Origin: an uncultured Siphonobacter sp.
GTDB lineage: Bacteria; Bacteroidota; Bacteroidia; Cytophagales; Spirosomataceae
DNA: 64,000 nucleotides
NCBI GenBank assembly: GCA_913775095.1
Contig: CAJYIW010000017.1
Coordinates: forward strand, 62,001-126,000
Reading direction: 5' to 3'
The notes under the pieces are model-generated. The model had not been told where the DNA came from, did no database searches, and saw only the letters and a program-made list of their open reading frames with translations. How positions within the stretch are numbered: position 1 is the first letter of the stretch; the number at the start of each line of letters is the position of its first letter. This document shows positions 15,854 to 32,006 of this stretch, piece by piece. Both the position numbers and the translations under genes were made by a program.

Positions 15854-17986
15854 TTATTCCAGAGCGAAAGCAACGTATGCATCACCGGTTTTGGTACCCA
15901 ATTTGCCTCCACCCGTAGCGGCAATGACGAGGTATTGTTTACCTTCGATCATGTACGTGCTGGGAGTAGCGTAGCCGCCAAAGGGAAGATCTGCTTCCCA
16001 GAGTTTTTTACCCGAATCCTTATCGAAGGCCCGGATTTTTTCATCCCCCGTGGCTGCAATGAATACCAGTCCGCCTTTGGTGACGATGCATCCGCCAAAG
16101 TTCTCCCGACCCGTTACCGGAATTCCCCGGACGGTTAGTTCGGGGTATTCGCCCAAAGGCTGTTTCCACACCATTTTGCCCGAATGAAGATTAATGGCAT
16201 TCAGGGTTCCCCAGGGGGCTTTGGTGGCAGGGTAATGGTCTTTGTCCAGAAATTTAGTGTAGTTCATAGCCCGGTATACGGGTGGTAAGTTCTGCTCTTT
16301 CTGTGGCTTATGGCTTTCCATATCCAGCAAAAACTCAGCCAGTGCCTGTACCTCATCTTCTGAAATCTGCGAAAAAGCGGGCATGGCTCCGCGACCATTT
16401 TTGACGATCTGAACGACATCGGGCTGTTTGTATTTTCTGGATAAATTGACCAGAGCCGGAATGCCCCCATTTCCCTGACGTTCCGAACCGTGACAGCCTA
16501 CGCAGCCTTTTTCCAAATACACCCGCCGGCCCGGATGCTGAGCCAGGGCCGTAGCGGATTTTTCTTTAGCGTTGATGTCAATCATGGTAATGTGCCAGGC
16601 TAACTCATTGGCATTGACGTAGAGGTTACCCGTCGTGGGGTCATAGGCTCCCCCGCTCCATTCCGCTCCACCGTGAATGCCGTAATAAATCACTCCTTTC
16701 TGAGTCGGAGGTACGTACCAGCCCGTATCTGCTGATCGGAAACGGCTTAACGCTTCCTGATGCACCTCTGGATTGCGATCCGTGAGGTCCTTTTCAGTAA
16801 CGACCTGCCGTGAGAAAGACTGGGGCCATTGCACATAAGGCTGAGTGGGATACGCATTTTCTCCCCAGAGCTGAGATTTCGGGACGGGCCGCTCCTCTAC
16901 TTCCGATAATAACTCACCCGTCTGACGGTTGAACAAAAAGATATTTCCGGTTTTGGTGAGTTGCACCACTCCCGCTACGGGCTTACCCTTATGCGTGAAG
17001 TCAGCTAAAATCGGAGCACATGGCAAGTCCAGATCCCATAAATCCCGGTGAATGACCTGATAGTGCCAGGCGTGTTTTCCGGTAGCGGCGTTCAGAGCCA
17101 CAATACTGTTTCCGTATAACTGCGAGCCGGGCTTACCGGGTCGATAAAAGTCATTTTTAGGCTGACCAGTGGCGAAATAAACCATCCCCAGCTCCGTGTC
17201 TACGGACAATCCGCCCCAGACGTTCACCCCGGCTCCTTCCCGCCAGAAATCCGCGTCGCCCCAGGTTTCATAGCCGGGCTCCGAGGGCTGGGGAATCGTG
17301 TTGAAGAGCCAGGTGCGTTTTCCGGTTTTAACGTCAAATCCACTCACGTTAGCCGGAGCACTCCAGCTCATGCAACCGACAATAATGGTATTCCGGTAAA
17401 CCACGGGGGAAGCCGGAGCCGTAATTTTCATTTCGGATGCAGGCCGGACCAGTCCTTCATTGAGATCAACCCGTCCCTCCTGACCAAACGACTCGATGCT
17501 TTTTCCGGTACGGGCATCAATGGCTACTAAATAGTTATTGGCCGTAAAAAGCAGTCGTCGGTCTGACCCTTCTTTCCAGAAAGCAATTCCCCGGTTAATA
17601 CCGCCCAGTCGTTCGCCCTTCCGGGCAGGATTATGTCGCCAGATTTCCTGGCCAGTTTTCGCATTGACAGCAATAATTTCGTGGTCGGGCGTGGTTACAT
17701 ACATGATTCCCTCCACCACGAGTGGATTCATCTGAATGTTTCCTTTTGAATTCCCGGAATGATACACCCAGGCAACTTTCAGCTTTGAGACGTTCTCTTT
17801 CGTGATTTCATCCGCTTTGGAAAAACGCGTTACTCCTTCATCGCCTCCCGTAACCGACCAGTCCAGACTGGTCGGGTTTTGTGAGGGGCGGCTGGCTTGC
17901 TGACAGGCCATCATTAACAGTACCGCGACCAGAAGCCAGAGGTACGGTTTTCCAGTTTTCCAGGTAAGGCTGAACCTTTCTGGCAT
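15854..17986 (-). CDS. PQQ-dependent dehydrogenase lipoprotein with embedded cytochrome c domain
   Basis: The start at 17986 (MPERFSLTWKTGKPYLWLL) was chosen because a lipoprotein signal follows directly (LLVAVLLMMAC); an open frame extends 32 codons upstream without typical coding. The mature protein is a quinoprotein beta-propeller of the membrane glucose dehydrogenase type (DWSVTGGDEGVTRFS, repeated W-motif strands, AATGGGKLGT near the end). It is interrupted by a cytochrome c domain with CVGCH (Cys495, Cys498, His499) and a distal Met in GAMPAFSQI. Such enzymes oxidise sugars or alcohols in the periplasm and pass electrons through haem c to the respiratory chain. No PQQ synthesis genes are present here, so the cofactor must come from elsewhere. 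Confidence 0.88.
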   Translation of the reverse strand: MPERFSLTWKTGKPYLWLLVAVLLMMACQQASRPSQNPTSLDWSVTGGDEGVTRFSKADEITKENVSKLKVAWVYHSGNSKGNIQMNPLVVEGIMYVTTPDHEIIAVNAKTGQEIWRHNPARKGERLGGINRGIAFWKEGSDRRLLFTANNYLVAIDARTGKSIESFGQEGRVDLNEGLVRPASEMKITAPASPVVYRNTIIVGCMSWSAPANVSGFDVKTGKRTWLFNTIPQPSEPGYETWGDADFWREGAGVNVWGGLSVDTELGMVYFATGQPKNDFYRPGKPGSQLYGNSIVALNAATGKHAWHYQVIHRDLWDLDLPCAPILADFTHKGKPVAGVVQLTKTGNIFLFNRQTGELLSEVEERPVPKSQLWGENAYPTQPYVQWPQSFSRQVVTEKDLTDRNPEVHQEALSRFRSADTGWYVPPTQKGVIYYGIHGGAEWSGGAYDPTTGNLYVNANELAWHITMIDINAKEKSATALAQHPGRRVYLEKGCVGCHGSERQGNGGIPALVNLSRKYKQPDVVQIVKNGRGAMPAFSQISEDEVQALAEFLLDMESHKPQKEQNLPPVYRAMNYTKFLDKDHYPATKAPWGTLNAINLHSGKMVWKQPLGEYPELTVRGIPVTGRENFGGCIVTKGGLVFIAATGDEKIRAFDKDSGKKLWEADLPFGGYATPSTYMIEGKQYLVIAATGGGKLGTKTGDAYVAFALE

Positions 17987-18063
17987 AGGTTTAGAGAATA
18001 AGGGGATCATTCCGTGCTCGTCGTACCGTACTCTGTCGTCAAACAAACTCGTATTTGCAAAGC

Positions 18064-18087
18064 AATAGTGTACGTACACCAAATGTA
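18064..18087 (-). promoter_or_regulatory. Promoter of the PQQ dehydrogenase with palindromic operator
   Basis: The minus strand reads TACATTTG (18087-18080), the Bacteroidota -7 consensus. The perfect 12-base palindrome GTGTACGTACAC (18068-18079) follows immediately. The palindrome sits near the expected transcription start and overlaps the 12-mer shared with the GH5 promoter. Confidence 0.6.
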
Positions 18088-18294
18088 ATTACAATTTTCT
18101 CAATTGTTGAAATAATTTCATTTAATATGTTATTTATTCAAGTAACAACTCTGATAATATTCTGATATCCAGTAACTTTTCAAAAAGTAAAAAGACTAAA
18201 ATAAATGCAGGGTATTCGACTACGCTGAAACTACAGAACCATCCGAAGCCTTCTCTTTCTGCGTTCGTAGTGAATGCAATCAAAGCCAAAGTTC

Positions 18295-18302
18295 TATATT
18301 TG
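18295..18302 (+). promoter_or_regulatory. -7 promoter box of the sigma54 activator gene
   Basis: TATATTTG fits TAnnTTTG and lies 31 bases before the chosen ATG at 18334. No clear -33 TTTG is visible. Confidence 0.5.
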
Positions 18303-18333
18303 ACGACCCCCTTCTATGGGGATACTTCTTCAT

Positions 18334-19668
18334 ATGCAAACCAAAATTCTGCTTGTAGACGATGAAACCCGGCTACGAAACCTGCTGGCCCGTCTGCTTC
18401 GACTGGAAGATTACGAAGTACTGGAAGCAGAAAATATCCAGTCGGGATTGAATCTGCTCCGCCAGCATCCGGATATCAAGTCCGTTCTTCTCGATGTACG
18501 TTTACCCGACGGAAGTGGGCTGGATACGATTCCCAGGGTCAAAGAAATTAATCCCGGTGCCGAAATATTATTGCTTACGGCCTATGGCACCATTCCGGAT
18601 AGTGTACAGGCGATCAAAAACGGAGCCTTTGATTACCTGGTTAAGGGCGACGATAATGACAAGATTATCACGCTGGTGGCGAAAGCCGTTGAAAAAGCCC
18701 GGCTTCAATTCCGAATCCGTGAGCTGGAAAATCAGATTACCGAAAAACTAATCTCTTTTGATGAAATTCAGGGGGAATCTGCCGGGATTCTGAAAGCAAA
18801 AGAACTGGCCCGCAAAGTGGCCCCTACGGATACTACGGTCCTGTTGATCGGAGAAACCGGAACCGGGAAAGAACTTTTTGCTCAGGCTATTCACCGGGAA
18901 AGTAGCCGCCGCAACAAGACCTTTCTGGCCATCAACTGCGGTGCTTTCTCGCGGGAATTGCTGGAAAGCGAGTTATTTGGCCATCGGGCAGGTGCTTTCA
19001 CCGGAGCGACCAAAGACAAAAAAGGGCTTTTTGAGGAAGCCAGCGGAGGCACACTTTTTCTGGATGAAATGGGTGAGATGTCGCTGGATCTTCAGGCCAA
19101 ACTATTGCGGGTTCTTGAAAACCGGGAATTCATCCGCGTGGGTGATACCAAACCGACGCAGGTTAACGTCCGCATCATTGCGGCGACGAACCGGGATTTG
19201 TTAAAAGAAAGTCAGGAAGGTCACTTCAGGGCGGATCTGTACTATCGCTTATCCGTTTTTCAGATGGAATTACCGCCGCTTCGGGAACGTCTGGAAGATG
19301 TGCCCTTGCTGGCTCAGGGACTGGCCCGAAGTCTTTCTCAACGCCTACGCCTTCCTTTTCAGCGGATTGACCCGGATTTTCTGCAACTGCTGGGTCGTCA
19401 TCAGTGGCCGGGAAATATTCGGGAACTTCGGAACGTCATCGAACGGGCTCTCATTCTGGCTGACGGTGGCGTACTTCGTTCGGACAGCCTGCCTTTTCAG
19501 TCGCAGGATCATTCCGTGGATTCCTTCGAATTGTCAACTGTTGAACAGCAGCACATTCGGAAAGTATTGCAATACACGAAAGGGAATAAAACCGAAGCAG
19601 CCCGCCTGCTGGGAATTGGCTTAACTACCCTGTATCGAAAAATTGAAGAATATCAGTTGCATTCGTAA
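18334..19668 (+). CDS. NtrC-type sigma54-dependent response regulator, probable Kdp regulator
   Basis: The start at 18334 (MQTKILLVDDETRL) is preferred over 18316 because the receiver domain begins here. The receiver domain (1-120) has acidic pair DD, phospho-acceptor Asp54 in LLDVRLPDGS and Lys104. The AAA+ domain has Walker A GETGTGKE (173-180) and the sigma54-contact loop GAFTGA (220-225). A Fis-type helix-turn-helix closes the protein (KTEAARLLGIGLTTLYRKI). It activates sigma54 promoters after phosphorylation. No sensor is adjacent; the nearest kinase is at 30312. A near-consensus sigma54 promoter precedes kdp at 22964, and no KdpE is present, so control of kdp is the best inference. Confidence 0.9.
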   Translation: MQTKILLVDDETRLRNLLARLLRLEDYEVLEAENIQSGLNLLRQHPDIKSVLLDVRLPDGSGLDTIPRVKEINPGAEILLLTAYGTIPDSVQAIKNGAFDYLVKGDDNDKIITLVAKAVEKARLQFRIRELENQITEKLISFDEIQGESAGILKAKELARKVAPTDTTVLLIGETGTGKELFAQAIHRESSRRNKTFLAINCGAFSRELLESELFGHRAGAFTGATKDKKGLFEEASGGTLFLDEMGEMSLDLQAKLLRVLENREFIRVGDTKPTQVNVRIIAATNRDLLKESQEGHFRADLYYRLSVFQMELPPLRERLEDVPLLAQGLARSLSQRLRLPFQRIDPDFLQLLGRHQWPGNIRELRNVIERALILADGGVLRSDSLPFQSQDHSVDSFELSTVEQQHIRKVLQYTKGNKTEAARLLGIGLTTLYRKIEEYQLHS

Positions 19669-19689
19669 AAGTATTTAACTCCGAAAGCC

Positions 19690-20061
19690 ATGAGTGAGCT
19701 CATTAAAGCCTACATCGAAGCTTATAATGCCAGGGATGTGCCGGGCATGCTGGCCTTACTGGACGATAAGGTCGTTTTCGAAAACATTTCCAGTCATTCC
19801 GGCTTGACTCGAACCCAATCAAAAAAGGAGTTTGAGCACCTGGCCGTGCAATCACTGGCTTATTTTACTGAACGCAAACAGACCATCCGCTTCCTGATTG
19901 AAACCGAAAATGCCGTTTCCGTAGAAATTGACTACTACGCAGTTGTTGCAGCGGATTTTCCTGATGCTTCAAAAGCAGGGCAAACCCTGCAAATGCGTGG
20001 CGTCAGTATATTTGAAATCAGGGAAAATAAAATTACCCGTATTAGTGATTATGGCTCTTAA
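19690..20061 (+). CDS. SnoaL-like / NTF2-family protein
   Basis: The 123-residue protein starts MSELIKAYIEAYNARDVPGMLALLDDKVVFEN, the typical cone-fold opening of the SnoaL/NTF2 superfamily. It continues with alternating strands ending RGVSIFEIRENKITRISDYGS. Members bind small hydrophobic ligands or catalyse isomerisations, and many have no known role. It lies 21 bases after the sigma54 activator and is likely cotranscribed with it. There is no signal peptide. A specific function is not identifiable. Confidence 0.8.
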   Translation: MSELIKAYIEAYNARDVPGMLALLDDKVVFENISSHSGLTRTQSKKEFEHLAVQSLAYFTERKQTIRFLIETENAVSVEIDYYAVVAADFPDASKAGQTLQMRGVSIFEIRENKITRISDYGS

Positions 20062-20282
20062 ATGGCCAGAGTCCCTTTATTTAAACAGAGTCGGCATGGA
20101 AGCCGTCTCCATCATATCGTCACTTACTATCCATTTTGAAGGCAAAACCTTTTATTTAAAACACCAGTGCAGTGCGTTTCAGCTTCCCTGCCAATCATAA
20201 ACCCTTTTCCACCTGCTTTCAACCTTTCAGAAGCGTTTGGTGTCCTGCGTATAATAAGATCAACCTCTGTCTTTTCTACGTT

Positions 20283-20804
20283 ATGAAACTATTCTGGACC
20301 TTCGTCCTCACTTTCGTCTCCGGCACCATTGCTCAGGCTCAGCAACGTATCAAATTTGAATCGACGTTAGCCGTTGAATATTTTAATCACCTCACCACAA
20401 CTTTACAGGTTGATCCCGGCCCCGACTGGAAAGGGTATTATTTGCCCGAAGATAGTCAGGGATTCAAGGTAACTTCCACGAACGGAATCGTCAAAAATGA
20501 ATCGCTGCATGTGGGACTGGGGCTTAGTTATGCCCGCCTGGCTCAAATCAATGGGGTGCTGGGGTTTGCGGATCTACGGCTTGACATATCCCGAAAACGC
20601 TTTGCTCCTTATCTGTATCTGAATCCCGGTTACTCGCATTTCTGGAACCAGTACGAAGGTGGAACCGGAGGGTTCAACTGGGAAAATGGCCTGGGTGGCC
20701 GCTATCGTATCAAAAATACAGGTAGCATTCTGGCTTCGGCGGGTCTGGCCTTCATGCAGCAAGGCAGCATTTTTTTTACTACCAAAGTGGGTTATACCTT
20801 CTGA
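20283..20804 (+). CDS. Small outer-membrane beta-barrel-like protein, unknown function
   Basis: The chosen ATG at 20283 gives MKLFWTFVLTFVSGTIAQAQ, a clean signal peptide; the open frame reaches back to 20172 without coding character. The 173-residue product has alternating hydrophobic strands (YLYLNPGYSHFWNQ, GLGGRYRIKN, GLAFMQQGSIFFTTKVGYTF) and a terminal Phe, typical of outer-membrane barrels. I do not recognise a named family. It follows the NTF2-like gene by 221 bases and may be separately transcribed. Confidence 0.65.
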   Translation: MKLFWTFVLTFVSGTIAQAQQRIKFESTLAVEYFNHLTTTLQVDPGPDWKGYYLPEDSQGFKVTSTNGIVKNESLHVGLGLSYARLAQINGVLGFADLRLDISRKRFAPYLYLNPGYSHFWNQYEGGTGGFNWENGLGGRYRIKNTGSILASAGLAFMQQGSIFFTTKVGYTF

Positions 20805-21973
20805 AGATGTAGCTGCGTCGGGTTTGATTATCCTGAATAGAATAGTATCCTGAAACCCACCAGTTCAGCAATCTCTTCCCAGCACGCTTTCGAGCATGTC
20901 CAGTATTTTTTGGACGATTAACAGTCCATCTGACTTATTGAAAACTGTATAAATGAGACAGCCTGTCCGGATTCCGAACAGGCTGTTTGTAGGTGCGTTT
21001 AAACCGCCAGGATTAAACACAGAGTAATGAATTCTTAATGACTAAATTATAAACATACGTCAATAAAACCAAGTATAGTTGAGGAAATATAGATTTTCGT
21101 CGACCAAAGGTAAGAATGCGTATACCCAGAACCAGAATTTACGTATAATAATAACGGTTAAATTCTTAATTCAGAATTTTTATAGCAGTAACTTCACTTT
21201 TAAATAATCAGGAATTGGTCGTAAGTTTTTTGAAGCTAATTCCAAACAATAAATCCTAACCGGAAACCAGTCAGGATTTATAGGAACTTAAAGTCTGTAT
21301 GAATCAATACGTATGGATTCATACTAACCCCAAGTGTTTACGGCGTTAATATGAAATATTTTTTCTGAATATCAAACGGTATAACGATTATTTTAAAGGG
21401 TATTCCTTTATTAAGCCCTCTTACAATCAATTACTTAAGCTAGCTATCGGACCATCAGACGAACGTATGCTCATGAGTAGGAAAGCAGGGAAGAAACTCC
21501 TTTATATTTTTCAGAGGTAATTCGTATTCTTTCATACCTGAACACCAGTAGTTACCTCAACACTTCCGTACTAGTTACACATATTTTCATCTACCAATGT
21601 TTATGATTGCTGAGTTACAAAGAAACTGGAAGGGAATTCATCCCTTTTTCATAGTAGTACCTATCAAAAAAATAAGCATATACGTAAATAAATCATTTTC
21701 ACTTATTCTCAGTAACTGATTTCAATAAAATCAGTACGATTCATCAGACTGGTAAGATCGTTTTTAGTCTGGCATCGATTGGTTAGCAGCCCTGCTAATT
21801 TAGGTAGCATGAGTAATTATCATTAAATAATTTATTTTTATCGGTAACTATTTTCTCAGGCCATACTTCCTGCAAACGCTGCTTTTTGTAGGAAATCTCT
21901 TAGTAATTTAAGGCCGAACTTGCATGGATCACGTCTGGATACCACGTAATTTTGCCGTTGATTAAACATTTGC
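20805..21973. other. Long AT-rich intergenic region
   Basis: No coding frame above about 40 codons looks genuine. It holds a terminator at 20958-20986 and a weaker hairpin at about 21250-21281 (AAATCCT against AGGATTT with two mismatches). The rest is AT-rich with no recognised structure. Confidence 0.5.
20958..20986 (+). terminator. Intrinsic terminator
   Basis: ACAGCCTGTCCGG pairs with CCGAACAGGCTGT across a 3-base loop with one mismatch, 154 bases past the barrel gene. The T tract is short. Confidence 0.6.
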
Positions 21974-22705
21974 ATGCTTATGCTGGGATTATTACTATCT
22001 GCCATGGGGCTTCTGAGTACTGCCTCGGATAGCCTCCCTAACGCTCCGGTAGTACCGATGGTAGTAGAAGATACCTTACTCCCATCCCACCACCCCATCA
22101 AAGCGGTTTTCAATCTGGATTCCCGAAGTTCATTCATTCAGCGTCAGCCCGTCAACATTTGGGGGGTGAATGCAGGTATTGCCTTTGGAGCTAAACGCAA
22201 TCAGCTTACGCTGGGGTATTACTGGATGAGTTACGCCGCGTATATCAAACTTATCAACTGGCGAAAAGAAGCCGCTCACCGGATTAATCTCGACTATTAC
22301 ACCCGAACCGATTTATGGTTCATGAGTCTGCTCTACTGGTGGAACCTCAAGAACAGCACCCACTGGATGATCAGCCTGCCCCTGGAAGTGGGCGGAGGTC
22401 TGGCCTATGCCATGCCGCACGATTTGATGAAAGACCAGCCCATCGATCGCACGACCCGCCACTTTTTCGCCCCCGTTCAGATGGGCCTGTATGTACAATG
22501 GAAGGCTACCCGATGGGTTGGCTTTGGGGTTCAGGGTGGTTACCGCTATTCCGTTTTTCAGACCGATCTCGATCAGCATTTCAATGGGACGTATTACAGC
22601 ATTGGGATGACGATTTATCCTGCATTACTCAAAGATTCCTGGCGGTGGATCAAGCATAAGGAACGCATTTCTCCCTTTCATCCTCCCCTTCCCGCCCAAA
22701 AGTAA
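21974..22705 (+). CDS. Predicted outer-membrane barrel protein, unknown
   Basis: The 243-residue product begins with a hydrophobic signal-like segment (MLMLGLLLSAMGLLSTA). It then shows alternating aromatic-rich strands (NQLTLGYYWMSYAAYIKL, RTDLWFMSLLYWWNL, WMISLPLEVGGGLAYAM, VGFGVQGGYRYSVF) characteristic of outer-membrane barrels. I do not recognise the family. It is the last gene before the kdp operon, separated by 303 bases that contain a palindrome and the sigma54 promoter. Confidence 0.65.
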   Translation: MLMLGLLLSAMGLLSTASDSLPNAPVVPMVVEDTLLPSHHPIKAVFNLDSRSSFIQRQPVNIWGVNAGIAFGAKRNQLTLGYYWMSYAAYIKLINWRKEAAHRINLDYYTRTDLWFMSLLYWWNLKNSTHWMISLPLEVGGGLAYAMPHDLMKDQPIDRTTRHFFAPVQMGLYVQWKATRWVGFGVQGGYRYSVFQTDLDQHFNGTYYSIGMTIYPALLKDSWRWIKHKERISPFHPPLPAQK

Positions 22706-22851
22706 GTCGCCTGATTTCCTGCGAAACGCCCTTCTTCAAAACTGGCAATTCATGCCATTTTATGCCTTCCTCTCTACGTTTAGCAGGGGCTTCCCAGGGT
22801 TATTTCACTGCCCTGAATCACTTCCATCCGCAGACCTTTTCCATCACCTAC

Positions 22852-22890
22852 CCTACCAAAATGAAAAACTGACCTTTTCATTTTGGTAGG
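22852..22890. promoter_or_regulatory. 16-bp perfect palindrome upstream of kdp: activator site or terminator
   Basis: CCTACCAAAATGAAAA (22852-22867) and TTTTCATTTTGGTAGG (22875-22890) pair perfectly around a 7-base spacer. The centre lies about 95 bases before the -24 element, a usual distance for an NtrC-type upstream activating sequence. No T tract follows the second arm, which weakens but does not exclude a terminator of the gene ending at 22705. Confidence 0.5.
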
Positions 22891-22963
22891 AATTCCAGGA
22901 TATGTCAAAAACAGCAAATCTTGTATATACTGATTATCAGATAGTTAATAACGTTTTTTCAAT

Positions 22964-22980
22964 TTGGCACGGGGCTTGAA
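22964..22980 (+). promoter_or_regulatory. Sigma54 (-24/-12) promoter of the kdp operon
   Basis: TTGGCACGGGGCTTGAA matches the RpoN consensus YTGGCACGrNNNTTGCW at every fixed base except C to A in the -12 dinucleotide. The GG at 22966-22967 and the G at 22978 keep the required 10-base spacing. The predicted start is near 22991, 18 bases before the first micro-ORF. Confidence 0.75.
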
Positions 22981-23008
22981 TTAACGTTGGCGTACAAACT
23001 TTTTTCCC

Positions 23009-23095
23009 ATGCTCATTACCATCGCATATCTACTGGCCGGCCTGCTTTGCTTCGGGCTCTTTTTCAAATCCGTCGACTATTTCGAAAAAATCTGA
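23009..23095 (+). CDS. 28-residue membrane microprotein at head of kdp operon
   Basis: The ATG at 23009 opens a 28-codon frame (MLITIAYLLAGLLCFG then LFFKSVDYFEKI) ending at 23095. It is one hydrophobic helix with a charged aromatic tail. It begins 18 bases after the predicted sigma54 start and ends 4 bases before the KdpF ATG, so it is well placed to be translated. KdpF is the next frame, so this is a second single-helix protein of the operon, perhaps another small stabilising subunit of the pump. A non-coding leader remains possible. Confidence 0.6.
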   Translation: MLITIAYLLAGLLCFGLFFKSVDYFEKI

Positions 23096-23099
23096 CGCC

Positions 23100-23180
23100 A
23101 TGTTTATCGCACTTTTCATTCTGTCGCTACTGGTTTTTGCTTACATGATTTACGTATTGCTGAAACCCGAAAATTTCTGA
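23100..23180 (+). CDS. kdpF: KdpF, small subunit of the potassium-transporting ATPase
   Basis: The 26-residue frame reads MFIALFILSLLVFAYMIYVL then LKPENF. One transmembrane helix followed by a LKPE-F tail is the signature of KdpF, which stabilises the KdpFABC complex in the inner membrane. It ends 3 bases before the kdpA ATG, the usual coupling in kdp operons. Confidence 0.85.
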   Translation: MFIALFILSLLVFAYMIYVLLKPENF

Positions 23181-23183
23181 GAA

Positions 23184-24920
23184 ATGAATACTGAACTATT
23201 GGGTGTTGGTTTAATTTTTCTGATAACCCTTGTCCTTTCCATACCGCTGGGTCGTTACATGGCCCGATTGTATTCCGGAGAACGTACTTTTCTGGATCGA
23301 ATTTTAGGTCCGGTTGAACGATTATTTTTCAGGATTTCCGGCATCGACTCACGCCGCGAAATGACCTGGCAGGAACACCTGAAAGCCTTACTGACCATTA
23401 ACATGGTTTGGTTCCTGTGGGCCATGTTTGTATTAACGAACCAGAGCTGGCTCCCCTGGAACCCCGATGGTAACCCGGACATGACCGCCGATCTGGCGTT
23501 CAATACGGCCATTAGCTTCCTGGTGAACTGCAACCTGCAACACTACTCCGGCGAAACGGGCGTCTCCTACTTTAGCCAGATTTTCTGTCTGAATTTCCTG
23601 CAGTTTGTTTCGGCGGGTACGGGTATGGCCGCAGCCGTAATCGTCTTCAAAGCCATTCGGGATCGTCAGACGACCCAGCTGGGTAACTTTTACGATTTCT
23701 TCCTGAAATCCTGCACCCGGGTTTTGTTACCGCTGTCACTCATCGTTGCCACGGTTCTGGTATTCAACGGAACGCCCATGAATACCCGGGGTAAGGCCTC
23801 TTACGTAACCATGCAGGGCGATAGCGTACAGGTATCGCAGGGACCGGCTGCCGCCATGATCGCCATCAAACATATCGGAACGAACGGCGGGGGTTACTTT
23901 GGCGTTAACTCCGCTCATCCGCTGGAGAACCCCAGTTACCTCACCATGATTGTGGAGTTACTGGCTCAGACGATCATTCCGCTGGGGATGATTTTTGCCC
24001 TGGGCTATTACATTCGTAACCGTCGCTTTAGTTACATGGTTTTCGGGGTTATGACGCTGGGTTTTCTGCTGCTGCTGACTCCGGCCATTTACAGCGAGAC
24101 GCAGGGTAATCCGGCCATCGCTCAGCTGGGCATCAGTCAGCCCTCGGGAGCCATGGAAGGCAAAGAAGTACGCTTTGGCTCAGTAGCTTCGGCTTACTGG
24201 AGCATCATTACTACGGTTATTTCCACGGGATCCGTCAACTCCATGCACGACAGTACCATGCCGCTTTCAGGAATGGCTCAGTTGCTGAGTATGATGACCA
24301 ATGCTTTTTACGGAGGCTGCGGGGTCGGTATTCTGAATTTCTATGTTTTCATCATTCTGGCGGTATTTATTTCCGGTCTGATGGTCGGACGAACGCCCGA
24401 ATTCATGGGTAAGAAAGTAGAAGGCCGCGAGATGAAAATTGCCATGATCGTGGCTCTTTTACACCCGCTCCTGATCATGGCCGGAACGGCGATTGCCAGT
24501 TATCTGGCGGCTAACGACGTGAGCATGGGCTGGTGGTATCTCAATGCCGACGGACAACCCAACACCGCCACGGCCTGGTTAAACAACTCCGGTTTTCACG
24601 GTTTCTCGGAAATGCTTTACGAGTACACCTCATCCTCTGCTAACAATGGTTCAGGCTTTGAAGGACTGGGAGACAATAACCCATTCTGGAACATCACTAC
24701 TGGTATCTGTCTGATTTTCAGCCGATTTATTCCCATCATTGGCCCCGTGGCCATTGCCGGCTTATTAGGTTCGAAAAAATACATTCCCGAATCGGCCGGA
24801 ACCTTACGTACTGATACCGGAACCTTCGGAATTATGGTTTTCGCGGTCATTGTCATTCTGGCGGCCCTGGCCTTCTTCCCGGCTCTGGCTCTGGGTCCTT
24901 TAGCTGAATATTTCTCTTAA
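23184..24920 (+). CDS. kdpA: KdpA, potassium-binding channel subunit
   Basis: The 578-residue protein is of normal length and has about ten membrane helices. The pore-loop motifs of the KdpA/SKT family are present: NTAISFLVNCNLQHYSGE, TNGGGYFGVNSAHPLENP, a third around GSVNSMHDSTMP, and NNSGFHGFSEMLYEYTSS. KdpA selects potassium and passes it to KdpB, giving high-affinity ATP-driven uptake. It is the third frame of the kdp operon. A structured 162-base gap separates it from kdpB. Confidence 0.97.
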   Translation: MNTELLGVGLIFLITLVLSIPLGRYMARLYSGERTFLDRILGPVERLFFRISGIDSRREMTWQEHLKALLTINMVWFLWAMFVLTNQSWLPWNPDGNPDMTADLAFNTAISFLVNCNLQHYSGETGVSYFSQIFCLNFLQFVSAGTGMAAAVIVFKAIRDRQTTQLGNFYDFFLKSCTRVLLPLSLIVATVLVFNGTPMNTRGKASYVTMQGDSVQVSQGPAAAMIAIKHIGTNGGGYFGVNSAHPLENPSYLTMIVELLAQTIIPLGMIFALGYYIRNRRFSYMVFGVMTLGFLLLLTPAIYSETQGNPAIAQLGISQPSGAMEGKEVRFGSVASAYWSIITTVISTGSVNSMHDSTMPLSGMAQLLSMMTNAFYGGCGVGILNFYVFIILAVFISGLMVGRTPEFMGKKVEGREMKIAMIVALLHPLLIMAGTAIASYLAANDVSMGWWYLNADGQPNTATAWLNNSGFHGFSEMLYEYTSSSANNGSGFEGLGDNNPFWNITTGICLIFSRFIPIIGPVAIAGLLGSKKYIPESAGTLRTDTGTFGIMVFAVIVILAALAFFPALALGPLAEYFS

Positions 24921-24922
24921 TT

Positions 24923-25075
24923 GAGTTTAGAGTTTTGGGTTAAGGGGTTTGGAGTGTATGCTTCACCCAAACCCCTGAGTCCCTGAATTCTAGCATAATT
25001 TACATGATTGGGTGAAGAGTTTTGGACGCAGAGATTAGGATCAACTCATAACCCAAAACACTAAACCCCAAACTC
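24923..25075 (+). repeat. Nested inverted repeats between kdpA and kdpB
   Basis: AGGGGTTTGG (24943-24952) pairs perfectly with CCAAACCCCT (24967-24976), and a GTG/CAC pair extends the hairpin. An outer pair GTTTTGGGTTA (24932-24942) and TAACCCAAAAC (25049-25059) encloses the whole gap. The RNA could be strongly folded and may affect kdpB expression or protect the upstream message. Confidence 0.6.
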
Positions 25076-25082
25076 AAATCTC

Positions 25083-27128
25083 ATGAACAATTCCACCCGG
25101 CTGTTTGAACCTGCGTTGGTTCAGACGGCCATCCGGCAGGCTTTCATTAAATTAGATCCCCGTAGTCAGTTCCGAAATCCGGTCATGTTTACCGTGGAGC
25201 TGGGTACGCTGGTGATGCTGCTGGTCACCTTATACATTGTCGCTACGGGCGACCAGAGTCAGGGATCGCTGGCTTACAACCTGATTGTTTTCTTTGTTCT
25301 GTTACTTACCTTACTTTTCGCCAACTTCGCCGAAGCTCTGGCGGAAGCCCGCGGAAAAGCTCAGGCCGATAGCTTACGCAAAACCCGGGAAGAAACGCCC
25401 GCCCGGCTGGTTCAGCCCATTGGCGAAATGTACGTCGGTGAGATTAAAACCGTGCCCTCGTCGCAGTTACGAAAAGGCGACGTATTCATTTGCGAAACGG
25501 GGGATATCATTCCTTCCGACGGTGAAATCATCGAAGGCATCGCTACGATTGACGAATCAGCCATTACCGGAGAATCGGCTCCGGTCATTCGCGAAGCCGG
25601 GGGAGATCGGTCCAGTGTCACGGGCGGAACGAAAGTCCTTTCCGATCAGATTAAAGTACTGGTGACTACCGAACCGGGCGAAAGTTTTCTGGACAAAATG
25701 ATCGCTCTGGTCGAGGGAGCATCCCGCCAGAAGACACCTAATGAAATTGCCCTGACGATTCTGCTGGCCGGTTTTACGCTGGTGTTCGTGATCGTGTGCA
25801 TTACCCTGAAACCCTTCGCCGACTACGCTCAGACGCCGATTCCGATTGCGGCCTTCATTTCCTTGTTTGTCTGTCTGATTCCTACGACCATTGGTGGCCT
25901 GTTATCGGCCATTGGGATCGCCGGAATGGACCGGGCCCTGCGGGCTAACGTGATTACCAAATCGGGAAAAGCCGTGGAGACCGCCGGAGACGTGGACACG
26001 CTTCTGCTGGACAAAACCGGTACGATTACGCTGGGGAATCGCCGGGCTACTCATTTCTGGCCAGCTGCGGGGGTCAGTGAAGAATCCTTTATGGAAACGG
26101 CTCTGCTATCCTCGCTGTCTGACGACACCCCGGAGGGTAAGTCCATTGTGGAACTGGCTCAGCAAAAGGGCATTCGGGCCAGTCTTCCCGAAGGCGTAGA
26201 GCTGATTCGTTTCACCGCCGAAACCCGTTCGTCCGGCGTAAATCTTCCTTCGGGTTTACGCATTCGAAAAGGAGCTCAGGATTCCATTCGCAATTTAGTT
26301 ACCCGGCAGGGTAACGCCGTTCCTGCCGACATGAGTGAACGCGTAAAAGCGATCTCGCAAAATGGGGGAACGCCTTTGGTGGTCGCTCAAAATGAACAGG
26401 TCCAGGGGGTCATTGAATTGCAGGACATCATTAAACCCGGCATGCAGGAACGCTTTGACCGCCTGCGGAAAATGGGCGTCAAAACGGTAATGGTTACGGG
26501 TGATAACCCTCTCACGGCAGAATACATTGCTAAAAAAGCCGGGGTCGATGATTTCATTGCCGAAGCCAAGCCCGAAGATAAAATGCAGTACATCCGCATG
26601 GAACAGGCGAATGGAAAGCTGGTAGCCATGATGGGCGACGGTACTAATGATGCTCCGGCTCTGGCTCAGGCGGATGTTGGAGTAGCCATGAACTCGGGAA
26701 CGCAGGCCGCCAAAGAAGCTGGTAACATGGTCGATCTGGACAATGACCCCACCAAGTTAATCGAGATCGTGGAAATCGGTAAGCAGCTGTTAATGACTCG
26801 CGGTACCTTAACCACTTTCTCCATTGCCAACGACGTGGCCAAGTATTTTGCCATTGTTCCGGCACTGTTCATCCTGAGTATTCCGGGCTTGCAAAGTCTG
26901 AATATCATGCACCTGCACAGTCCGGAATCGGCAATTCTGTCGGCCGTTATCTTTAACGCCATCATTATCCCCATGCTTATACCGCTGGCGTTGAAAGGAG
27001 TTGCCTACAAACCCATTGGGGCCAGTGCCTTACTTCGCCGAAATCTGTTCATGTATGGTCTGGGCGGGGTGGTCATTCCCTTCATCGGGATCAAAGCCAT
27101 TGATTTAGCGGTCTCACTATTTTTTTAA
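25083..27128 (+). CDS. kdpB: KdpB, catalytic P-type ATPase subunit
   Basis: The 681-residue protein contains the P-type ATPase motifs in order: actuator loop ITGES, phosphorylation site [11 protein letters not shown], nucleotide-domain [10 protein letters not shown], and hinge [21 protein letters not shown]. About seven membrane helices frame these domains. Length matches the family. It hydrolyses ATP to drive potassium import through KdpA. Confidence 0.97.
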
Positions 27129-27154
27129 TATCCGATCAAACGCATTCATAGCTC

Positions 27155-27700
27155 ATGAAAACGCATCTGTTGCCCGCTCTCAAATTAACGATTCTGAGTA
27201 TCGTATTTTTTAGCGTCATTTATCCGGCAATGGTCTGGGGCATTGCCCAGCTCAGTCCGACGAAAGGTAATGTCGCCTGGTTTGAACACAAAGGCAAAGT
27301 GGTTGGTGCCCAGCTGATCGGGCAATCCTTCACCCAGGACCAATACTTTCAGGGCCGGCCTTCGGCGGCGGGGTACAATGCCGCCGCTTCCGCGGGTTCG
27401 AATAAAGGCCCTACTAATGCCGATTACCTCAAAGATGTTCAGGCCCGGATTGATACCTTTCTGGTTCATAATCCCGGCGTTCAGAAAAGCCAGATTCCGT
27501 CTGATTTAGTGACGGCTTCGGGTTCCGGTCTTGATCCCGACATCAGCGTACAGGGAGCTCTGATTCAGATTCCACGCATTGCCCGGATTCGCAGAATTTC
27601 CGAAGAAAGGCTTCAGCAGCTCGTAAAAGAACAGACGAAAACCTCTCCCATCGGCGGCGTTGAAACGGTCAATGTACTGGCCTTAAATGCAGCACTTTGA
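27155..27700 (+). CDS. kdpC: KdpC, potassium-transporting ATPase accessory subunit
   Basis: The 181-residue protein has one N-terminal membrane helix (LLPALKLTILSIVFFSVIYP) and the family blocks QYFQGRPSAAGYNAAASAGSN and LVTASGSGLDPDISVQGAL. KdpC stabilises the complex and assists nucleotide binding by KdpB. It follows kdpB by 26 bases. Confidence 0.96.
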   Translation: MKTHLLPALKLTILSIVFFSVIYPAMVWGIAQLSPTKGNVAWFEHKGKVVGAQLIGQSFTQDQYFQGRPSAAGYNAAASAGSNKGPTNADYLKDVQARIDTFLVHNPGVQKSQIPSDLVTASGSGLDPDISVQGALIQIPRIARIRRISEERLQQLVKEQTKTSPIGGVETVNVLALNAAL

Positions 27701-27851
27701 GTCTGGTGTTCTGAGTTTTGTCTCATTACCCCTGCTGTTGCCTGACACGTCAGTCATAAAACTGGTTACCCAGGAATAGTCTGCCTGCTAGCCCGGTAAT
27801 AGCTGCCAGCCGAGAAGATTATTAAAGAAACCAGCCTTCTACCTGAATATG

Positions 27852-27875
27852 GCTGCCAGCGTTTGGGCTGGCAGC
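27852..27875. repeat. REP-like palindrome, copy A
   Basis: GCTGCCAGC and GCTGGCAGC are perfect arms around a GTTTGG loop, in the kdpC-porin gap. It belongs to the family also found at 43733, 43779, 60269 and 63705. Confidence 0.65.
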
Positions 27876-27962
27876 ACCGCCAGTAAGCCTTTTTTATCAG
27901 TAACCACGATTGGTTCGGTCATAGGCCGAATAACCGTACATTCCCATATTCATCTTTCATTC

Positions 27963-29021
27963 ATGAAAACCATTCTTGCCGCCTTCGTACTAAGTTCTTT
28001 TGCCAGTACTGTTCAGGCTCAGTCTGATTCTACCAAAGCCCTGACCATCAGCGGGTACGCTGAAGTTTATTACGGATATGATTTTAACCGTCCTGCCAGT
28101 CATACCATGGATGGTTTCCTGTATAACCACAACCGCCACAATGAATTCAACCTCAATCTGGGTTTTGTGAAGGCCGCTTATCAAACGGATCGCGTTCGGG
28201 GAAATATCGCTTTGATGGCTGGCACCTATGCCCAGTACAACCTGGCCGCCGAGCCGGAGTTACTTCGTCATGTGTTTGAAGCCAACGTGGGAGTAAAACT
28301 GGCCAAGGATTTCTGGCTGGATGCCGGAATCATGCCCTCACACATTGGTTTTGAGAGTGCTGTCGGTAAAGACAACTGGACCCTGAGCCGCAGTCTGCTG
28401 GCTGAAAACTCACCCTATTACGAAACCGGAGCCAAGCTTTCGTATGCCACCGGAAAATGGTCATTCTCGGGCCTGGTCCTCAATGGCTGGCAACGCATTC
28501 GTCGGGTGGATGGCAATCAAACGCCTGCTTTTGGCTGGCAGGTACAATACAAACCTTCGGATCGGGTAACGCTGAATTCCAGCAGTTTCATTGGGAACGA
28601 CAAACCCGACTCCACCCGCCAGATGCGATACTTCCATAACTTATACGGCATTTTTCAGCTCAGCTCCCGGTTGGGGCTCATTGCGGGGGTTGATAGTGGC
28701 TGGGAACAACTGGCCAAAGGTTCCGGTAAACTAAAATCCTGGTATTCTCCCGTCGCCATTCTCCGCTATGCCGTCTCCGACGCCTTTGCTCTGGCCGCTC
28801 GTGGTGAATATTATCAGGATAAAGAAGGCGTTATTATTTCTTCTCCGGCCCCCTTTAAGGTTTATGGCTTTTCCCTCAACGCCGACTATCGGGTCAGTCC
28901 GGAAGTGCTCGTTCGGTTCGAAGCCCGACAACTCAGCAGTACGGAAGAGGTTTTCCAGAAGAATGGTTCTTATACGAAATCCAACACCAGTGTAAAAACC
29001 GCCCTGTGCATTGCTTTGTAA
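27963..29021 (+). CDS. Outer-membrane porin of the bbp2/OmpL-like type in the kdp operon
   Basis: The ATG at 27963 gives a good signal peptide (MKTILAAFVLSSFASTVQAQ); the open frame back to 27849 runs through a REP-like palindrome and is not coding. The 352-residue protein begins its mature part with LTISGYAEVYYGYDFNRP and continues with strands such as KLSYATGKWSFSGLVLNGWQR, typical of the beta-barrel porin-2 family in Bacteroidota. Its place between kdpC and kdpD suggests a channel helping potassium cross the outer membrane when it is scarce. That role is inferred. Confidence 0.75.
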   Translation: MKTILAAFVLSSFASTVQAQSDSTKALTISGYAEVYYGYDFNRPASHTMDGFLYNHNRHNEFNLNLGFVKAAYQTDRVRGNIALMAGTYAQYNLAAEPELLRHVFEANVGVKLAKDFWLDAGIMPSHIGFESAVGKDNWTLSRSLLAENSPYYETGAKLSYATGKWSFSGLVLNGWQRIRRVDGNQTPAFGWQVQYKPSDRVTLNSSSFIGNDKPDSTRQMRYFHNLYGIFQLSSRLGLIAGVDSGWEQLAKGSGKLKSWYSPVAILRYAVSDAFALAARGEYYQDKEGVIISSPAPFKVYGFSLNADYRVSPEVLVRFEARQLSSTEEVFQKNGSYTKSNTSVKTALCIAL

Positions 29022-29040
29022 TTCTTTAACCTAAATAAAC

Positions 29041-29195
29041 GTAGAGACGCGATTCCGTTTTTTTGAATGCAGAGCCTACGATTGTATCGCGTTTCCCCCG
29101 GAGAGGAAGTGCCGTTCAGGAGAGCGTATTTTTCTCTGGCTCTACGATTGGTAAAAATACTGCCTTTACCCAGATGCGATCAATCGCGTCTCTAC
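29041..29195. mobile_element. MITE-like element with 14-bp terminal inverted repeats
   Basis: GTAGAGACGCGATT (29041-29054) and AATCGCGTCTCTAC (29182-29195) are perfect inverted ends of a 155-base non-coding segment. An internal word TACGATTG occurs twice. The element fills most of the porin-kdpD gap and ends 10 bases before the kdpD ATG. No transposase is present, so any movement would need one in trans. Confidence 0.55.
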
Positions 29196-29205
29196 TCTTT
29201 GCACC

Positions 29206-30315
29206 ATGGAATCGAACAACAGCCATTTCCTGGAACTCATCCAGAAATCCCGGCGGGGCAAATTCAAAATTTACATCGGGATGAGTGCCGGCGTGGGGAA
29301 AACCTTCCGGATGTTGCAGGAAGCTCATTCCCTGCACCGAAATGGTCTGGATGTTCGCATTGCCTATATCGAAACCCATCGCCGGGCCGAAACCGAGGCC
29401 CTGGTCGAAGGTCTCCCCCTGTTGCCCCGCAGAAAAGTTTTTTACAAGGGGAAAGAACTGGATGAAATGGATTTGCCAGCCGTGCTGGCGGCTCAGCCCC
29501 AGCTGGTGCTGGTGGATGAACTCGCTCATACGAATATTCCCGGCAGTAAAAACGAAAAACGCTGGCAGGATGTACTTGAGATTCTGGATCAGGGCATCAG
29601 CGTCATTTCAGCCGTCAATATCCAGCACCTGGAAAGCCTCAACGAATCCGTCGAACGCATTTCAGGCGTTCCGATCACGGAGCGGATTCCTGATCATTTG
29701 CTGCGACTGGCCGATGAGGTTGTAAACATTGACCTCACCGCCGATGAGCTGATTACCCGCCTGCAGGAGGGGAAAATTTACTCGCGGGAAAAGGTCGAAC
29801 AGGCCATGCGGAATTTCTTTCAGCCCGAGAAAATCCTGCAACTTCGGGAGTTAGCCCTGCGGGAAGTGGCCACACAGGTCGAACGTAAGATTGAAAAGGA
29901 GTTACCCGGCACCTTCGAAGCCGAGCGTCTGCTGGCCTGCATCAGTTCTTCTGAAAAAACGGCCCGTAAAATCATCCGTAAAACCGCCCGGCTTGCTTCG
30001 TATTACAACGCCCAGTGGTATCTTCTTTACGTACATACCCCTCACGAAAATCAGGATAACATTTCACTGGCCCTGCAACGTCATCTGATTAATAACTTCA
30101 AATTAGCAACGGAATTAGGGGCCGAAATTATTCAGGTGCACGATCCGGACATTGCCCAGACCATCACGGCCACCGCCGAAAAATATAAAGTAACGACCGT
30201 TTGCATCGGTAAGCCTCACCTCAATCTGTTTCAGGTTATCTTGCGTACCAATGTTTTCAATCGACTGCTGAAACAACTCAGTGCGTCGGATATCGATTTG
30301 ATCATTTTATCATGA
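29206..30315 (+). CDS. kdpD: Stand-alone KdpD sensor half (KdpD plus Usp domains, no kinase)
   Basis: The 369-residue protein carries the KdpD domain with Walker A GMSAGVGKT (25-33) and LVLVDELAHTN (100-110), and a universal-stress-protein domain (~235-369, ending IDLIILS). It stops there; the four-helix DUF4118 membrane segment and histidine-kinase core of full-length KdpD (~900 residues) are absent. The following kinase gene overlaps its stop by four bases, so the sensor is split into two coupled proteins. In KdpD this part binds ATP and second messengers and modulates kinase output. Confidence 0.9.
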   Translation: MESNNSHFLELIQKSRRGKFKIYIGMSAGVGKTFRMLQEAHSLHRNGLDVRIAYIETHRRAETEALVEGLPLLPRRKVFYKGKELDEMDLPAVLAAQPQLVLVDELAHTNIPGSKNEKRWQDVLEILDQGISVISAVNIQHLESLNESVERISGVPITERIPDHLLRLADEVVNIDLTADELITRLQEGKIYSREKVEQAMRNFFQPEKILQLRELALREVATQVERKIEKELPGTFEAERLLACISSSEKTARKIIRKTARLASYYNAQWYLLYVHTPHENQDNISLALQRHLINNFKLATELGAEIIQVHDPDIAQTITATAEKYKVTTVCIGKPHLNLFQVILRTNVFNRLLKQLSASDIDLIILS

Positions 30316-32006
30316 AACTCAAGCTCAAACTTTCCCTCGGCTTATGGTTTCTGTTTCTGGTGAGCGGTGCCCTGGGTTTGCTGGGCGTTTACTTTTTGCG
30401 GGAACTGGCTCAGGATTCGCAGGATATTTTGAAAGCCAATTATGAATCCCTGACGTACGTAGAAGAATTAACTTCGTTCATTGACGCTCAGGAAACGAAG
30501 TCATCCGTTCCTGATTTTCAGCGATTTGAATCCATCCTGGCCCGGCAGGAAAAGAACATTACCGAGTTGGGCGAACAGGATCTAACCCGCCAGATCCGGC
30601 TGGGATATTACCAGTGGAAACGGGATACTGCCCAGTTCCAATACCTGAAAAACCTGCGTCAGCCGCTTCACCGTATTTCGGATTTAAACCGGGAAGCTAT
30701 TTTCAGAAAAAGTGAAACCGCCCGTGAAACGGCCGAATCTGCTCTGTTATTACTTACCTGTATTGCCACTTTATGCCTGCTTGTAACCTTTTCTTTTGCC
30801 GTTAACTTTCCGTCTTTCATTGCGAATCCGCTCCGGGAATTAACCCAGAAGATGAAGGATGTGGCCGCCCGTAATTATACCACCCGACTGGGTTTTCGCT
30901 CCGATGACGAGTTGGGAGAACTGGCCGAAGCCTTCAATACGATGGCCATCAAACTCGATCAGTGGGAAAACAGTAATCTGGCGAAAGTACAGTTTGAAAA
31001 ACGCCGCATCGAAACCGTCATTGCGTCCATGCCCGAGGCTATTATTGGACTGGATGATCAACGCACTATTCTTTTCGTTAATGAACTGGCCTTAGGATTG
31101 CTGGGCATGAAAGAATCCGATCTGGTCGGAAAATATGCTCCCGATGTGGCCCTGCGTAATGACCTGCTGCGAACGCTGTTGCAGGAAAAAACGGAAGATT
31201 TACCCATTGTGGTTGAGGGGGAAGAACAGTACTTCAGCCGGGAAAAACAATCGGTCCTCAATGGTTCTACGGTTATTGGCGAAGTCATCGTTTTGAAAAA
31301 TGTAACCCGTTTTCATCAGCTGGACCAGGCAAAAACGCATTTCATTGCCACGGTATCGCACGAATTAAAAACGCCCATTTCGGCCATAAAAATGAGTCTT
31401 CAACTGCTCAGTGACCCCCGGATTGGTTCGCTCTCGGGGGATCAGCAACAGTTGTTGTCCAGCATTCAGGCGGATACTCATCGACTGCTTCGCATCACGG
31501 GCGAGCTACTGGAACTCTCCCAGGTAGAAACGGGGAACATTCAGCTTCAAATGGCCCCGGTAGGAATCGAGCAAATCGTTCAGCTCGCTCAGGACAGCAT
31601 TGAGAGCACCGCCCGGCAACGCCACATCGCTATCATTACCCAATTGCCCGAAAGTCAGTTAATGATTCACGCGGATGCGGAGAAAACAGCCTGGGTCCTG
31701 ATTAATCTGCTCACGAATGCCATTCGATACAGTCCGGAACATGGACAGGTCGAGGTGAGCGTTCAAACCCAGGCTAATTGGGCAGAATTCAGAGTAAAGG
31801 ATCAGGGTAAGGGCATTGAAGCCCCCTACCTCACCAAGATATTTGACCGATATTTTCAGATTCCCAATGGAAATGGTAAGACGGGCACGGGGCTGGGACT
31901 TGCCATTTCCAAAGACTTTATCGAAGCTCAGAATGGAAGCATCTGGGCTCAAAGTCAGGGCTTAGGCTACGGAAGCGTGTTTGCTTTTCGTCTGCCGCTG
32001 GCTTAA
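30312..32006 (+). CDS. Membrane histidine kinase (HAMP-PAS-HisKA-HATPase), KdpD partner
   Basis: The 564-residue kinase has a first membrane helix (~9-31), an extracytoplasmic helical segment, a second helix (~143-170), HAMP (~170-225), PAS (~235-330), HisKA with VSHELKTP (His350) and HATPase with INLLTNAIRYSP and GTGLGLAISKDF. It starts within the stop of the KdpD half (ATGA overlap). It probably supplies the kinase activity missing from that protein. The likely target is the NtrC-type regulator at 18334, since no other response regulator is in the window. Confidence 0.9.
   Translation: MKLKLKLSLGLWFLFLVSGALGLLGVYFLRELAQDSQDILKANYESLTYVEELTSFIDAQETKSSVPDFQRFESILARQEKNITELGEQDLTRQIRLGYYQWKRDTAQFQYLKNLRQPLHRISDLNREAIFRKSETARETAESALLLLTCIATLCLLVTFSFAVNFPSFIANPLRELTQKMKDVAARNYTTRLGFRSDDELGELAEAFNTMAIKLDQWENSNLAKVQFEKRRIETVIASMPEAIIGLDDQRTILFVNELALGLLGMKESDLVGKYAPDVALRNDLLRTLLQEKTEDLPIVVEGEEQYFSREKQSVLNGSTVIGEVIVLKNVTRFHQLDQAKTHFIATVSHELKTPISAIKMSLQLLSDPRIGSLSGDQQQLLSSIQADTHRLLRITGELLELSQVETGNIQLQMAPVGIEQIVQLAQDSIESTARQRHIAIITQLPESQLMIHADAEKTAWVLINLLTNAIRYSPEHGQVEVSVQTQANWAEFRVKDQGKGIEAPYLTKIFDRYFQIPNGNGKTGTGLGLAISKDFIEAQNGSIWAQSQGLGYGSVFAFRLPLA

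Follow-up and report, generated by a model that had tools for sequence, protein, structure and literature searches.

A Kdp system linked to an NtrC-type regulator, a sigma54-type promoter, and a separate kinase in Siphonobacter: a probable RpoN-dependent circuit with a short KdpD

Introduction

In Desulfovibrio vulgaris, the response regulator DVU3334 regulates its own kdp operon (PMC3333781), and it appears in the sigma54 regulome as a response regulator with GAFTGA, assigned to potassium uptake (PMC4641369). According to the relevant sections of the first report, the Desulfovibrio kdp kinase "appears to be split" into a K+-sensor/UspA open reading frame (ORF) and a kinase ORF, two further regulators target the same D. 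vulgaris kdp operon, and the orthologs named for DVU3334 are only those of D. vulgaris Miyazaki and S. fumaroxidans (PMC3333781). Another article describes, in the sections bearing on these points, the kinase-less KdpD of Deinococcus geothermalis, which carries out a phosphorylation of Escherichia coli KdpB stimulated by cyclic di-AMP (c-di-AMP); its 2024 survey found mainly short KdpD in Bacteroidota, with kinase-less forms occurring mostly where KdpE is missing, and post-translational control was suggested as the sole role of KdpD in species with a kinase-less KdpD (PMC11018627). Here, we analyze the kdp locus of an uncultured Siphonobacter sp., located in a stretch of 64,000 nucleotides (the window) of contig CAJYIW010000017.1. 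The reading that we favor, and hold with good confidence, is that a histidine kinase activates an NtrC-type regulator, which drives kdp through sigma54, while the short KdpD acts as a serine-kinase brake.

In the parts of the literature searched, with subscription journals mostly outside that search, no description of sigma54 control of kdp in Bacteroidota was recognized, and the words "kdp" and "potassium" are absent from the main text of two articles that treat sigma54 in Bacteroidota among others (PMC12316311, PMC9723704).

Results

Organization of the kdp locus

The window encodes all four components of the KdpFABC pump (KdpF, KdpA, KdpB, and KdpC) and, with them, the components of a DVU3334-type circuit, i.e., a sigma54-type regulator, a short KdpD, and a separate kinase. 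It encodes neither a KdpD that includes a histidine kinase half nor an OmpR-type KdpE. The features are as follows.

18295-18302, plus strand: TATATTTG, a candidate housekeeping -7 box for the regulator gene (a single, weak match to the box consensus of the initial annotation)
18334-19668, plus strand: NtrC-type response regulator, proposed kdp activator (Pfam Response_reg, Sigma54_activat, and HTH_8; GAFTGA read in the translation)
22853-22889, plus strand: predicted upstream activating element, a perfect inverted repeat CTACCAAAATGAAAA-7 bp-TTTTCATTTTGGTAG with half sites at 22857-22864 and 22878-22885
22964-22980, plus strand: sigma54-type -24/-12 promoter TTGGCACG-GGGC-TTGAA, its GG 88 bp past the inner half site
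23009-23095, plus strand: conserved micro-ORF encoding a 28-amino-acid hydrophobic peptide ending YFEKI
23100-23180, plus strand: kdpF, 26 amino acids (PF09604, 23.2 bits against a cut-off of 21.2)
23184-24920, plus strand: kdpA (PF03814)
25083-27128, plus strand: kdpB (Pfam match; TGES motif present)
27155-27700, plus strand: kdpC (PF02669)
27963-29021, plus strand: BBP2-type outer-membrane beta-barrel porin (PF07642; ORF called from 27849, the start at 27963 being likelier by eye)
29206-30315, plus strand: short KdpD with KdpD and Usp domains (Pfam), Walker A motif G-x5-GKT, and Walker B motif DE
30312-32006, plus strand: HAMP-PAS histidine kinase (Pfam HAMP, PAS, HisKA, and HATPase), proposed partner of the regulator

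The initial annotation had placed a GAFTGA-bearing NtrC-type activator upstream of kdp and a -24/-12-like site before two micro-ORFs, and both hold: the regulator carries a receiver, an AAA+ domain with GAFTGA, and a Fis-type helix-turn-helix (HTH), and the second micro-ORF is KdpF. The 28-amino-acid YFEKI peptide matched no Pfam or NCBIfam family. The 4.6 kb then given as the gap between regulator and promoter counts from the start codon; from the stop at 19668, the distance is 3.3 kb, holding a SnoaL-like gene and two more ORFs. Transcription is predicted to start at about position 22991. Further downstream, the ATG of the kinase overlaps the stop codon of the short KdpD in an ATGA overlap. 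The best NCBIfam match of this short KdpD is NF038185, "KdpD-like non-kinase potassium sensor," over residues 7-366 of 369, with a score of 362.5 bits lying under the curated cut-off of 550, and it has F rather than W after GKT.

Two side observations were made by eye. The spacer at 29040-29200, before the short kdpD, carries terminal inverted repeats TAGAGACGCGATT ... AATCGCGTCTCTA resembling those of a small repeat element. Divergent from the regulator gene, on the minus strand at 15854-18082, lies a large ORF with features like those of a pyrroloquinoline quinone dehydrogenase and of a cytochrome (CVGCH).

The genome (5.65 Mb, 99.04% complete) has one KdpA, the closest named relative of which is that of Siphonobacter aquaeclarae (87%), and a single diadenylate cyclase gene. 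The sigma54 DNA-binding domain is matched twice above the cut-off; these rpoN copies lie at C24:290903 and C23:83723, and the copy on C23 adjoins another sigma54-activator match (C23:82410-83603). As initially claimed, the genome yielded no KdpE ortholog: the best match to the KdpE model NF007820 scored 136.8 bits, compared with 259.8, 251.4, and 213.6 bits for the kdp-linked KdpE of three control genomes, in which the best other OmpR protein scored 144.1; the curated cut-off of 325 was reached by no protein, controls included.

Conservation of the arrangement in Bacteroidota

KdpA was present in 112 genomes (111 over the cut-off) of an even draw of 395 Bacteroidota genomes, the window's own genome included. 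From 79 of the other 111, 80 regions were taken; the 32 genomes left out are 29 of the 36 members of one family (f18) together with G041, G200, and G280. A further set of 80 named loci comprised the top 80 among 381 relatives of the KdpA in the window and is thus biased toward the window; with the window itself, the total came to 161 loci, each with a KdpA ORF. Genes at these loci were assigned by phmmer comparison with the proteins of the window, and KdpD was classed as short at 128 loci, full length at 16, and intermediate at 9, with 8 left unassigned. Because the sampled genomes share ancestry, the counts given here are not independent events.

The regulator lies within 5 kb upstream of kdp at 115/128 short-KdpD loci (47/53 in the even sample and 67/74 in the named set) versus 0/16 full-length-KdpD loci, so the co-occurrence proposed as a check on the initial annotation is borne out. 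A kinase lies downstream at 124/128 short-KdpD loci, and a separate kinase is found at 0/16 full-KdpD loci. Conversely, an OmpR-sized (KdpE-sized) regulator is downstream at 0/128 short-KdpD versus 14/16 full-KdpD loci; at the remaining two, the regulator is cut at the edge of the stretch (L034) or KdpD and regulator are on the other strand (L038). Among solved structures, the downstream regulator of one full-KdpD locus (L041) matches a KdpE chain best. An ORF resembling the FEKI peptide accompanies 121/128 short-KdpD loci versus 1/16 full-KdpD loci, and a porin is found 3 to 7 kb after the kdpA start at 114/128 versus 2/16, which suggests an outer-membrane route for the pump.

All six exceptions of the even sample have an ortholog of the regulator elsewhere, inside the kdp clade described below: 7.4 kb upstream in L060, directly after the kinase in L074 and L077, and as homologs of 63% identity about 9 kb from kdpA in G249, 60% at 14 kb in G371, and 57% at 240 kb in G363. 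For comparison, the best-scoring paralog of the regulator in the window's genome reaches only 40%. In the named set, two of the exceptions (L151 and L158) come with only a short upstream stretch.

In a regulator tree of 86 rows, which takes in every genome-search locus except the window's own copy (29 of 30), 49 kdp-linked rows (the window, L074, and L077 among them) and the genome-search rows L204-L207, one of which is L060's own regulator, form one 53-row clade (support 100/100) that contains none of the 25 paralog rows. Other NtrC proteins often have K-P at the receiver site where the kdp clade has K-G. K-G was read in 111 of the 118 regulators of the 128 short-KdpD loci, the pattern failing to read the other 7; among the 25 paralog receivers, K-P was read in 9 and another residue in 2, with 14 unread by the pattern. 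The regulators of family f18 and of L037 fall outside the kdp clade. In f18, an NtrC-type regulator is nevertheless present at 6/7 loci and a kinase at 7/7, both upstream of kdpA.

Two f18 loci show, as a separate observation, KdpD fused to a type 2 EIIA domain of the phosphotransferase system (PTS) on the minus strand (L095, 5317-6996, with Usp; L104, 5323-6993), a possible link between the nitrogen PTS and Kdp. Short KdpD also matched 436 plasmid records, one of which, a Bacteroidota record from Parabacteroides distasonis (L245), was examined. There, an annotated HTH ORF at 3084-3269 resembles, by eye, only the C-terminal HTH of the kdp regulator and is followed by a half site at 3344 and a GGCAC-type promoter at 3456-3470; the regulator of this record may have decayed or lie elsewhere.

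Kinase lineage and pairing with the regulator

The kinase tree comprises 75 rows from 68 of the 161 loci, with 13 of the 16 full KdpDs given. The separate kdp kinases, those of f18 included, group together (54 rows, 98/80), and all 13 full-KdpD kinase halves form another group with two more kinases (L046 and one of L131), set apart on a branch of 2.37 changes per column (100/100). Since the tree has long branches and few outside kinases, which makes its deeper joins unsafe, our claim is one of lineage separation and not of origin. We rejected gene fission of KdpD, as the kinase core groups apart from the kinase half of full-length KdpD. Thus, of the split KdpD initially described, the two ORFs joined by an ATGA overlap remain, and the arrangement is better called a short KdpD plus a separate kinase of another lineage.

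The pairing of this kinase with the regulator, initially only inferred, gains from two kinds of evidence. The kinase and regulator ORFs overlap in L074 (kinase 16839-18710, regulator from 18700) and L077 (kinase 16853-18724, regulator from 18714). Moreover, partial distance correlations computed for 37 nonredundant of 112 loci, controlled for the pump proteins and compared with 200 permutations, are 0.56 between receiver and kinase, 0.52 between receiver and short KdpD, and 0.54 between kinase and short KdpD, each with 0/200 permutations as high; toward the pump, they are 0.15 (receiver-KdpC), 0.33 (kinase-KdpC, 1/200), and -0.09 (receiver-KdpA). Regulator, kinase, and short KdpD therefore evolve together more closely than with KdpA. 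As the receiver correlates with the short KdpD nearly as well as with the kinase, however, these values do not single out a phospho-pair.

That near equality would also fit a wiring in which the regulator and promoter were correctly read but another kinase fed the regulator, the downstream kinase modulating the short KdpD or the pump instead. The genome encodes many receiver proteins, and in the window it is the short KdpD, not the regulator, that the kinase gene overlaps. We nonetheless consider such a wiring unlikely in view of the ORF overlaps in L074 and L077, the downstream kinase at nearly all short-KdpD loci with an OmpR-sized regulator there in none, and the presence of both an NtrC-type regulator and a kinase upstream of kdpA at 6/7 f18 loci as well.

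Promoter and upstream element

A repeated half site (TCATTTTGA/TCAAAATGA) was noticed on reading the intergenic stretches before kdp. It occurs at 107/124 loci with an upstream regulator (15.0 in shuffled sequence) versus 0/16 full-KdpD loci (1.4 shuffled). The loose promoter pattern GG[CTA]A[CT]N4-5TTG occurs at 90 of these 124 loci (28 on the reverse strand, 12.4 shuffled) and at 4/16 full-KdpD loci (2.1 shuffled). More telling than either enrichment is the spacing between the two, which is 86 to 94 bp in 69 of 97 half-site/promoter pairs. The combined module, a paired palindromic TCATTTTGA-type element 86 to 94 bp before the -24 GG, is found at 72/128 short-KdpD loci (23/54 in the even sample with the window, 49/74 in the named set), 0/16 full-KdpD loci, and 0/7 f18 loci, compared with none on the reverse strand and a shuffled mean of 0.02 (at most 1 over 200 rounds). 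The promoter and upstream element at fixed spacing are thus far beyond chance.

In the window, the element measures 15+7+15 bp, and the promoter shows the -24 GG and the -12 TTG correctly spaced, the upstream site lying at the conserved distance (88 bp). Where the regulator gene has relocated (the window and L097), the element has kept its place next to kdp. By eye, in two Flavobacterium loci (L122 and L118) an extra ORF of about 94 amino acids, starting MKNQVT, separates the promoter module from the FEKI peptide.

Several observations weigh against the reading that we favor. The usual sigma54 consensus at -12 is GC, and the window reads GA, its C replaced by A. A strict sigma54 matrix run over the 450 bp upstream of kdpA is weak, with a mean best score of 10.5 versus 10.09 in shuffled sequence at the 124 NtrC loci; scores of at least 13 were reached by a fraction of 0.048 of these loci versus 0.0056 shuffled, and by 0/16 full-KdpD loci versus 0.0219 shuffled. 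The pattern TGGCA[CT]N5TTG[CAG] occurs at 6/124 NtrC loci versus 0.7 shuffled. The bare sigma54 pattern alone is thus weak evidence, and the matrix was replaced by the element-based analysis, whose loose patterns were chosen after viewing these loci, so that their own enrichment is partly circular. Within the even sample and the window, the module occurs in 7 of 15 families and in none of the f3, f23, f24, f29, f35, f37, f46, and f47 loci; f18, to which 36 of the 112 kdpA genomes belong, has a regulator from a different lineage and lacks the module at all 7 loci sampled. A search of the window's own genome for half site plus promoter gave 3+5 matches against 2+3 in a backward control; a module with a single half site thus lacks specificity on its own, and we claim no wider regulon. 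Four named Dyadobacter loci (L139, L143, L186, and L187) and L191 have several kilobases of upstream sequence with no regulator in reach, and 15 of the 128 short KdpDs lack the G-x5-GKT Walker A pattern.

Some of these points would fit a locus where the housekeeping sigma factor drives kdp, the NtrC-type regulator has some other nearby target, and their linkage is inherited gene order: the strict matrix selects few loci, 8 of the 15 families are without the module, 3.3 kb separate regulator and kdp in the window, and the sample is strongly related by ancestry. Such a locus seems quite improbable to us, for the TAnnTTTG box, named initially as evidence against sigma54 control, is absent from the plus strand in 22701-23008, the element and promoter keep their spacing before kdp even when the regulator is elsewhere, and no full-KdpD locus has the regulator within 5 kb upstream. 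Still less probable, although many Flavobacterium loci place the inner half site in a hairpin, forming GCTTATCATTTTGATAGGC and then T's, is that the TCATTTTGA element is merely the terminator of the regulator gene and not a binding site, since the window's element, 3.2 kb from that gene, is not followed by a T run and nevertheless precedes the -24 GG by 88 bp, and the element is retained in L097, L143, L151, and L187, where no regulator is in reach.

Discussion

Altogether, the linkage over many families, the element-promoter module, and the absence of KdpE support the initial suggestion that potassium limitation acts through RpoN with the NtrC-type regulator. We propose a model in which one operon, transcribed from the promoter at 22964-22980, would comprise the YFEKI peptide, kdpF, kdpA, kdpB, kdpC, the porin, the short KdpD, and the kinase. 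Upon potassium shortage, the membrane HAMP-PAS kinase would autophosphorylate and pass its phosphate to the NtrC-type regulator, which would bind both half sites of the repeat at 22853-22889, some 90 bp before the -24 element, and open the RpoN promoter using ATP via its GAFTGA loop. Once potassium is back, the short KdpD would phosphorylate KdpB at its TGES motif, thus shutting the pump, and c-di-AMP on the Usp domain of the short KdpD could perhaps drive this brake. The sequence features of such a serine kinase (ASK) are present, namely, a KdpD domain with Walker A and B motifs and TGES in KdpB, and the short KdpD is most likely a serine kinase acting on KdpB and not the sensor half of the neighboring kinase. 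The YFEKI peptide could act as a pump subunit or as a feedback signal to the kinase.

More tentatively, the same scheme might extend to Bacteroidota kdp systems without KdpE in many families, a generalization that we would put somewhat short of even: the kinase and the sigma54 activator would form a transcriptional on-arm, the kinase-less KdpD a post-translational off-arm, and the YFEKI peptide an extra membrane component. How kdp is induced in bacteria with a short KdpD would then have a candidate answer open to experiment, an ATP-dependent RpoN switch with a specified regulator, kinase, and DNA element. A half site of the TCATTTTGA type, followed some 90 bp later by GG-N10-TTG, could, moreover, serve as a marker for potassium control in related genomes.

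As far as the literature searched goes, what appears to be new is the occurrence of this circuit as the common one in many Bacteroidota families, the element with its spacing, the separate ancestry of the kinase, and the peptide and porin linked to kdp. Compared with E. coli KdpD/KdpE, the pump is the same and presumably so is the purpose, the induction of kdpFABC at low potassium by a two-component system; E. coli, however, uses an OmpR-type KdpE and a one-piece KdpD, whereas the window has an NtrC-type activator, a sigma54-type promoter, and a kinase of another lineage. The short KdpD resembles that of D. geothermalis, as the relevant sections of its report describe it, in domain content, Walker A and B motifs, the TGES motif, and a diadenylate cyclase gene in the genome. 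Unlike the proposal made there, the neighboring kinase and NtrC-type regulator of the window would add transcriptional control (PMC11018627). Closest of all, the DVU3334-DVU3339 system, compared by its description in the sections concerned, shares a GAFTGA two-component regulator, a Usp-bearing sensor, a separate kinase ORF, and kdpFABC, so that this kind of circuit was already known; it differs in belonging to another phylum and in having its regulator inside the operon, and those sections mention neither a porin nor a YFEKI peptide.

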